A DNA stretch of 64,000 nucleotides from Glandiceps talaboti (taxonomy: Eukaryota > Hemichordata > Enteropneusta > Spengelidae): assembly GCF_964340395.1 (NCBI RefSeq), contig NC_135566.1, positions 15,842,001 to 15,906,000 on the forward strand, in the 5' to 3' direction. Within the stretch, counting starts at the first letter, position 1. Each line of letters starts with the position of its first letter. Position numbers and translations under genes: made by a program. The notes beneath the pieces are model-generated. The model was not told the origin of the DNA, did no database searches, and worked only from the letters and a program-made list of their open reading frames with translations. Below, piece after piece: positions 12,484 through 15,400 of the stretch.

Positions 12484-15400
12484 CTGGGAAATACAAATAC
12501 ATTATGCCATTGTCATTATAACATCAAGCCACAAATGTATAAATACTTAGTTGTTTTCCAATCAATCAGTCAGTCAATCAGTCAGTCAGTCAGTCAGTCA
12601 GTCAGTGTCTGTCAGTCAGTCAGTCAATCAATCAATCAATCAATCAATCAATCAATCAATCAATCAATCAATCAACGAAGGATATACACACTGAAATGAA
12701 ATAACACATTGTTCTTTATATGACCTGCTGTCTGATGCATTAAGTGACAAAATATCATCCAAAATTCATATTACTAATAACGATCATTTTCATAAATTTT
12801 GAACTGAAATACATTATGTGAATAGAAGTATGCTATTTCACAATAGCAACATACCTACCAAATACCAAGACAAGTATGTACACAAGCAAGCACACACAGA
12901 TACAGATACAGATATATACACAGATATACAAACACAGACAAAGACACACAGACACACACACAGACACTGTTATGTCTATAGCACTATGTACATCTAACTT
13001 ACCTACCTATGGCAATGGATGTAAAGTACAACTTACCAATGGCAATGGATGTAAGGTACAACTTACCAATGGCAATGGATGTAAGGTACAACTTACCTAT
13101 GACAATGGATCTAAGGTACAACTTACCTATGGCAATTGATCTAAGGTACAACTTACCTATGGTAATGGATGTAAGGCACAACTTACTTATGGCAATGGAT
13201 CTAAGGTACAACTTACCTATGGTAATGGATCTAAGGTACAACTTACCTATGGCAATGGATCTAAGGTACAACTTACCTACGGCAATGGATCTAAGGTACA
13301 ACTTACCTATGGCAATGGATCTAAGGTACAATTTCTCTGCATCTTCATACATGTTCATATCATAATTATACAATGACGCTAGATGACCAACCGACAGGGC
13401 CACTTCATAATCTTCCTCTCCTAGAAGCTTCTCTTTAATTTCTATTGCCTTCACATGCATATCCTCTGCTTCCTACAATCACCAAAACAACAAGTTTGCA
13501 TAATGAATGTCTTTATGTAATGTTCCTGGAGATGTTGTTTGAAGATGCACTAGCTGCAACTGGAATGGGTTTGTTTTTTTGAAAAAGTTTTTCGTTAGGT
13601 ACAATAACTTACTCGTAACATTGTACACCATGATCACAATATGATTAAAATCTGATGTGGTGAAATTGGCTAGATGTCTTTATTTACCTCTATTTCCATT
13701 GTTTTGTGCCATCAAATTTACGCACAGATAGCTTTGATCTCCCGTGGCTCAATCATTTTGAATACCACATGTAGTCTTTCATGTCATTTTTCATTACTTT
13801 TCACTTGTTGTACATAAACTTTGAACTCTTACCTTAAACCTGTGCATAGATTGGTAAAGTCTTCCTAAATTACCATAATGTTTAGCTGTTTGCACATTAA
13901 CTTCTCCAAATGCCTTCTTAGCAAGGTTAAGTGATGATAAGTGGAGATCCTGTGATTCTTGGAGTAGTTTGTTTTCTGTTTCTTTGTTATGACTGTCTAT
14001 GGCAATTTCTTCCAGTATTAGTGCTGTGGATACAATAAATTCATATCATGACTAACAATGGAAAGCATCACTTTTAATGTCTCCTTTGGTAAAGTTAAGA
14101 TCAATCTGATTAAAATCTGATGTAGTGAACTTGGCATGATAATTTACCCCGGTTCCTACTTTTATTGTCATTTGTTCTTTTTCTGTTCTGTAAACGCCTT
14201 GTACCCACATTTGATGCATTATCTTAAGAATTCTCGTACAAAACACAAGCGTGGAGTGGATTTAGTGAACCAATGAGAATGCATTATGTGCCGAAACATA
14301 TGGATACAGTACCTCAGAATGCTCTGTTCGAAAAGAGCTCAAGTGCAGACCACAGACAACAATGTTATTGTTATTGTTTGGGTGGTTCTGTTTGTTTAAT
14401 TTGGAATATTAAGTGTTATATTGTACGACGGATTCTGGTTGGCTACATGTAAGATTCAATACAAGAACGCCTATGGTCTTAGAAATATCTGAAGTAAAAT
14501 AAGATAACACTTTACCTTTAACTCTCTTTGATGAGGCTAGTAGTAGATGATCTGATGGTAAAATCTGAGTAATAATGTGAATGGCTTTCTCTGCGTGGTA
14601 ACTACAAGTAAAATAAATCAAAAAATAAGTTTTAAAGACATTAATATTTACAATATTCTGGTACTCGAGTGTCATGAAGTTCTTTTATTGTAACATTAGT
14701 GTATCAAAAAACAGTCATAAAATTAGCACTGTGTGTTCATATGAGTGTACATGAAATACTCACACACTCATTAGAATACAGGTATGCAATAACGTTTTCA
14801 GTACTGCACTGCTGTACAAATACCAATAGTATGCAAGCACACTCCAATACAAGTATTCATTGGAAAATATCAAAATATCAACTACATTTATTATTAATGA
14901 CTTGTCTTAAGATCTAAGATAATTTGATAATTCTGCCCATAATAATGAGTAGGGGTTCCTCCCATGTAATATTGTTATCTTAAAGGTGAGACAGTGGTAT
15001 AAAACTTAAAAGGCCCCTAACTTAATGGGGGGTTATTGTAAAACTAGAATGCATACAGTGAACAATGCAGTGATTTCTCTACGAAAATCCATGGCAACAA
15101 CGAGCAGCTGGTGATTTTAGTAAATAAATTTGGTATGTGTGGATATGTGAATGTCTTGGGAATGTGTGCGTTGTTATACAAAGTTGATATTTATACATGG
15201 TATATGCAAATTTAGACAAAACATGATCAGACTGGGGCTTGTTCGTTAATCGTACTGAAAATCTCTTACTATTCCTGACTCTTAATTTTTCAGATTAGGA
15301 CCTGGAGGTGCTAACAATAACCACACAGGTGGTAAACTCCACCTCTAACTCCATCAATTATTAATGACAATGTCTGCCTTCTAAGATTACTCTAAACAGC

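Follow-up and report, generated by a model that had tools for sequence, protein, structure and literature searches.

A minisatellite that multiplies a splice donor is already known from the human gene IFI6 (6-16), where the repeat unit is 12 bp long. Its units at exon 2 are described as splice donors, and the use of two downstream units gives three mRNA species (PMC4526556). The IFI6 minisatellite paper (Turri et al. 1995) is also cited in PMC3618361 and PMC2572611. In the 64-kb stretch of Glandiceps talaboti DNA that was analysed (the window), an array at the end of exon 11 of APPBP2, encoding amyloid protein-binding protein 2, would by its sequence be a further example. In both genes repeat units at an exon end carry donors, their use being predicted in the case of APPBP2; the IFI6 mRNAs differ from one another by repeat units. 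Features of the IFI6 type found in the APPBP2 array are the start at the exon end, a donor consensus in each unit and a unit length divisible by 3. The two cases differ as well: for IFI6 mRNA species have been described and the unit measures 12 bp, whereas the APPBP2 array has units of 30 bp, is seen in DNA only and belongs to an unrelated gene and phylum.

Tandem repeats at exon-intron boundaries, with units of 30 bp on average, have also been described in human paralogues of segmental duplications, where splicing was altered (PMC2812944). There the repeats are tied to novel introns in recent paralogues, while in APPBP2 a conserved donor of a deeply conserved gene was multiplied. Intron gain by tandem AGGT duplication (the Rogers model), with ATP2A1 and fission yeast SPOG_01682 as examples (PMC4974935), likewise involves tandem copies carrying AG/GT. 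However, the duplicated segment in that model is wholly exonic. The APPBP2 segment does not agree with it in this respect, as it straddles an existing intron boundary common to other animals, and no new intron is shown. In DOK7 intron 4, the intron-proximal, stronger donor is preferred, and the distal donor gains when given the same sequence (PMC5585400). DOK7 resembles APPBP2 in having more than one competent donor before one acceptor, competence being predicted for APPBP2. Unlike APPBP2, it has two sites of unequal strength under SRSF1 regulation and no repeat array. A literature search found no paper pairing Glandiceps talaboti with a genome assembly.

Within the window the gene was identified on the minus strand. 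The deposited G. talaboti protein P0001 (581 aa) mapped exactly in 12 coding exons, residue 355 at a split codon excepted, and a 448-aa assembly matched the solved structure 8jal_A, which we take to be human APPBP2, over query residues 1-444 of 448 (E 6e-218). The translation of exon 11 (56 aa) also matched this solved APPBP2 structure (E 1e-32). Based on the P0001 mapping and on 8jal_A homology, the coding region extends over 12248..42400. Coding exons 1-4 are located at 42400-42260, 40593-40504, 39789-39634 and 29233-29108, exons 5-8 at 27663-27493, 22436-22278, 16930-16823 and 15676-15554, exons 9-10 at about 14600-14517 and 14024-13833, exon 11 (166 nt) at 13307..13472 and exon 12 at 12483-12248, all on the minus strand according to the P0001 mapping; most ends are given to codon precision, and the stop codon and untranslated exons are left out. 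The codons of exon 11 read EAEDMH...LYLRSIAI, followed by the first base of a G codon, and the exon is situated within the TPR region (Pfam on P0001: TPR_12; TPR_NPHP3 below its cut-off). Intron 11 (12484..13306, minus strand) measures 823 nt from donor 1 to ...TTTCCCAG, and exon 12 starts with GTATGAAATTG.

A 30-bp array of 10.9 copies with 93% matches was detected by TRF at 13004-13331. Together with the unit table, this gives a minisatellite of 11 units at 12997..13331 (minus strand), the unit being TTGTACCTTAGATCCATTGCCATAG followed by GTAAG. Unit 1 spans the splice boundary, with 25 nt from the end of exon 11 and 5 nt from the start of intron 11. The array thus starts at the exon end and continues into the intron, units 2-11 being intronic as annotated. 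Within its 0.33 kb fall 11 of the 29 minus-strand occurrences of GTAAGT in the window, a concentration far beyond chance. The eleven-copy tandem array that an initial annotation, made from the same letters, had placed on this exon edge was thus recovered both by TRF and by the 11 GTAAGT hexamers on the minus strand.

Donor 1 (GTAAGT, 13301..13306, minus strand) is the site used in P0001. Donors 2-5 (starting at 13276, 13246, 13216 and 13186) and donors 6-10 (13156, 13126, 13096, 13066 and 13036) are GTAAGT on the same strand, each adding 30 nt in frame. The in-register donor of unit 11, GTAGGT (13001..13006, minus strand), is also in frame and has the same hexamer as the donor of APPBP2 exon 1. 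The eleventh GTAAGT (12997..13002, minus strand) comes 34 nt on and is offset from the register by 4 nt; splicing from it would shift the frame of exon 12, with a stop predicted after 14 further residues. This confirms the 34-bp, frame-breaking last unit of the initial annotation, whose statement that all copies are in frame holds for GTAAGT donors 1-10 and fails for the eleventh (13002). Splicing from donors 1, 2, 3, 5 and 10 and from the GTAGGT of unit 11 was predicted to give reading to the normal stop with 10 additional residues per unit; splice-product frames were computed for seven of the 12 sites, the remaining five sharing the same open frame at 30-nt steps. The steps of 10 codons without a stop that had been noted were found as well, since the frame is open until after unit 11, and retention of the whole of intron 11 would lead to a predicted stop right there. 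On the opposite strand of the array there is a 118-codon open frame (13009-13365, plus strand) with MAMDVRYNLP repeats, which is expected because the repeat unit is divisible by 3.

The last exon-like base is G before ten of the eleven GTAAGT sites, with A in unit 5, which corrects an earlier count of nine. AG occupies positions -2 and -1 before eight of them (AA in unit 5, TG in units 9 and 10). From -3 to +6, eight of the eleven sites including donor 1 are identical and score 11.13 in a PWM of donor frequencies, the U1 5' end being used as well. Lower scores were obtained for unit 5 (7.79, A at -1), units 9 and 10 (9.13, T at -2) and the in-register site of unit 11 (8.56). The 10 donors of the other APPBP2 introns score from 5.58 to 12.25, and the donor 1 sequence exceeds eight of them. 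Nothing in their sequence would disqualify the extra donors. Some use of the later ones appears plausible, because eight of the eleven sites match donor 1 at -3 to +6 and outscore most APPBP2 donors.

No insertion was present at the exon 11/12 joint in P0001 and nine aligned homologues (Ptychodera, Saccoglossus, a bird, a brittle star, a sea star, amphioxus, a crinoid, Lingula and Nematostella). Among the best 120 of 739 matching proteins, the joint is uninterrupted in 107 (103 by automatic check; P0072, P0087, P0096 and P0115 by eye), seven lack the motif used, and P0052, P0057 and P0108 end differently after the motif. In the vertebrate models P0069, P0075 and P0077, some 20 additional residues that are not repeats of the exon stand right at the joint, probably intron read into the models. 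A query of exon 11 and the units revealed one protein with the motif twice among the best 120 of 176 matches. This protein, P0124 of the sea anemone Actinostola sp. (204 aa), contains the end of exon 11 twice, RYDMAEELYIRSIAI ... RYDMAEELYIRSIAIGRKLFG, with nine residues between, which is perhaps an independent two-copy duplication of the same exon edge or perhaps a gene-model error. Exon 11 read-through ORFs were found in P0129 (fish Ilyodon), P0122, P0125 and P0126. They leave the exon at the same codon, which indicates that the intron position is old and common to other animals.

Compared to the unit consensus, nine substitution variants are located outside the donor hexamer and one in-register change, in unit 11, falls inside it. 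The variants occupy 14 of 264 cells, the same number as counted in the initial annotation (here by eye from the unit table). Its companion count of 0 changes in 66 hexamer bases is reproduced under one parse of unit 11, while in fixed register one base has changed. The hexamer makes up 6 of the 30 bases, and the absence from it of all nine distinct substitutions has p = 0.13; with two variants arising twice, the corresponding value for 11 events is p = 0.086. The warning issued with that count, that shared variants undercut it, was justified, as hexamer conservation is not significant by events. Donor conservation was rejected as evidence of function, the lower per-cell value of 0.027 counting shared variants repeatedly. 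Seven of the nine variants are non-synonymous and two synonymous. Under a neutral expectation of 28% synonymous changes, two or fewer have P = 0.52, against P = 0.004 under an arbitrary benchmark of 70% synonymous among accepted changes. The probability that 9-11 changes leave the reading frame free of stops is 0.68-0.63. Six of 16 minisatellite periods in the window are multiples of 3 (by eye), and the preservation of frame by the array is thus what chance gives (prior about 1/3). No coding or donor constraint was detected in the units, nine events having little power against weak selection.

The window is rich in minisatellites: 16 arrays with periods of 15-100 bp, picked by hand from 34 TRF rows and including two that overlap, cover 9.9% of it. 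The exon 11 array is the only one of the 16 on any of the 22 splice sites of APPBP2. With 93% matches it resembles in divergence arrays away from exons, such as those of 54 bp x 7 copies (93%) and 37 bp x 83 copies (91%). The latter array (3 kb, 33777-36824) shares the long intron that separates coding exons 3 and 4 with a 63-bp minisatellite of about 15 copies (32096-33034). A 42-bp array of 5.5 copies (28781-29011) lies 97 nt beyond the exon 4 donor and is the second closest of the 16 to a splice site of APPBP2. Calculated from summed unit lengths, the chance of seeding an array is 0.9% per donor and about 10% for the 11 APPBP2 donors. With a chance of about 0.10, no special cause is needed for an array on a donor, and the array at the exon edge would be a normal side product of active minisatellite formation.

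The reading that we prefer, with a probability of about two in three, is that of a young minisatellite seeded by chance, in which donor 1 is dominant and some later donors are used without function. The initial annotation had offered a young array with unworn donors as an alternative only; this turned out to be the better fit, with no significant donor conservation and no coding constraint. A local tandem duplication of 30 bp (25 nt of exon 11 and 5 nt of intron 11) would have arisen in this lineage, and we infer that it is recent and grew to 11 copies by slippage or unequal exchange, as the other minisatellites of the region may have done. The donor would have been copied with each unit, resulting in ten in-frame and mostly full-strength donors and a frame-shifting last one. 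Donor 1 would provide the conserved protein and is probably the main site. The later donors are likely to see some use as unselected splicing noise, leading to steps of 10 residues or, in the case of the last donor, to a frameshift. The array may be tolerated because donor 1 keeps working.

The joint ...LYLRSIAIG-MKLFG in P0001 corresponds to donor 1 (13306) joined to exon 12 (12483). Donor 1 is most likely the main site according to this one deposited gene model, which may have been guided by homology. P0001 forms a single-member cluster and its name has no isoform label, both being weak evidence of one product. No second named G. talaboti product or other near-identical sequence appeared in the protein search (best 120 of 739 matches), and no near-identical G. 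talaboti protein was found with exon 11 and all units as a query of 157 aa (best 120 of 176). With a query of exon 11 and exon 12 (134 aa), the first match had 69% identity and none exceeded 82% among the best 120 of 379, which leaves no independent fragment from G. talaboti in that set. Where equal donors are duplicated, the intron-proximal one is often favoured. Such a preference would favour the donors farthest along the array and speak against donor 1 as the main site. The DOK7 work on proximal preference (PMC5585400) cuts both ways, the proximal donor there being the stronger one as well.

Next in order after a dominant donor 1 with some functionless use, and rather unlikely, is a completely silent array, in which donor 1 alone is used and exon context together with TACCT pairing would keep units 2-11 idle. 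The choice of donor 1 in the deposited model agrees with this, as does the lack of a second named G. talaboti product or near-identical match among the best 120 of 739, 176 and 379. Predicted RNA pairing could be added to it: in 150-nt folding windows the cost of opening the donor 9-mer is 3.42 kcal for donor 1 and 3.05 kcal for the last GTAAGT, while nine of the ten in-register sites of units 2-11 lie above donor 1, at 3.65-5.83 kcal, unit 5 having 2.14 kcal. At 150 and 200 nt, most internal donors are predicted to be more hidden than donor 1 or the last one, as their AGGTA pairs with TACCT in adjacent units. In 80-nt folding windows, however, donor 1 (3.88 kcal) is predicted to be less accessible than six of the nine donors in units 2-10. 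With 150-nt windows, predicted costs of the other, genuine APPBP2 donors range from 1.67 to 5.33 kcal, which means that pairing fails to separate used from unused sites, and it was set aside as uninformative. The predicted openness of donor 1 itself drops from 0.015-0.060 in a single-copy control to 0.002-0.011 within the array, and seven further donors are identical to it at -3 to +6, both of which speak against silence. The predicted fold of the array has -70.0 kcal, a value given without a shuffled control.

The opposite possibility, that several of the ten in-frame donors are used and produce a ladder of 10-residue blocks in a TPR helix, with a length varying between individuals, would draw on donor quality and the IFI6 precedent and is unlikely; if true, a deeply conserved TPR protein of an animal would contain a splice-donor VNTR. 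That such a ladder is moreover selected, with donor choice or allelic copy number tuning the length of the APPBP2 TPR helix, we consider very unlikely. Ten in-frame donors without a stop through unit 11, a hexamer unchanged in units 1-10 and the position of exon 11 inside the TPR region (Pfam) are in line with selection. Against this, the frame has a prior of about 1/3 and the lack of stops a chance of 0.68-0.63, the peptide changes look neutral, the joint is uninterrupted in 10 of 10 aligned proteins with highly conserved flanks, and the last GTAAGT breaks the frame. AG/GT units could also double as acceptors, so that the array trims itself by introns that remove multiples of 30 nt. AGGT is present in eight of the 11 units (1-4, 6-8 and 11), and in fission yeast introns span copies of a 24-bp AGGT segment in genes where it has been duplicated several times (PMC4974935, citing Zhu and Niu 2013). 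Nevertheless, the unit has no pyrimidine tract ahead of its ATAG (by eye) and the downstream acceptor TTTCCCAG looks better, which makes this reading far-fetched. Hardly credible is an assembly artefact in the copy number. The number does come from a single record of one haplotype, but six of the nine variants, those at unit positions 5, 7, 15, 20, 22 and 25, occur in one unit each, a pattern that mere duplication of units during assembly would not produce, and the contig of 23.5 Mb suggests a long-read assembly.

Eleven near-equal donors at nearly fixed 30-nt spacing before one acceptor form a natural test of position in donor choice. A graded ladder in RNA would give a direct measure of the position effect; exclusive use of donor 1 would mean that identical competitors are outweighed by exon context. 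Extrapolated from this one gene, the minisatellite density of the window suggests that exon-edge arrays should be frequent in the genome, where they can be surveyed.

Some other elements were noted in the window. Intron 11 contains a TTGA/CTGA microsatellite (12559-12675) that holds 27 of the 29 branch-point-like YTRAY motifs of this intron, 82-192 nt before the acceptor. This is farther than usual for branch points, and the cluster is probably due to chance. Rfam and tRNA scans of the 64-kb window gave no matches. A 478-codon ORF with an F-box (PF12937, E 1.5e-7) is located at 51872-53308 on the minus strand, and a probable ubiquitin-conjugating enzyme exon (PF00179, E 5e-26) at 57481-57822 on the plus strand.
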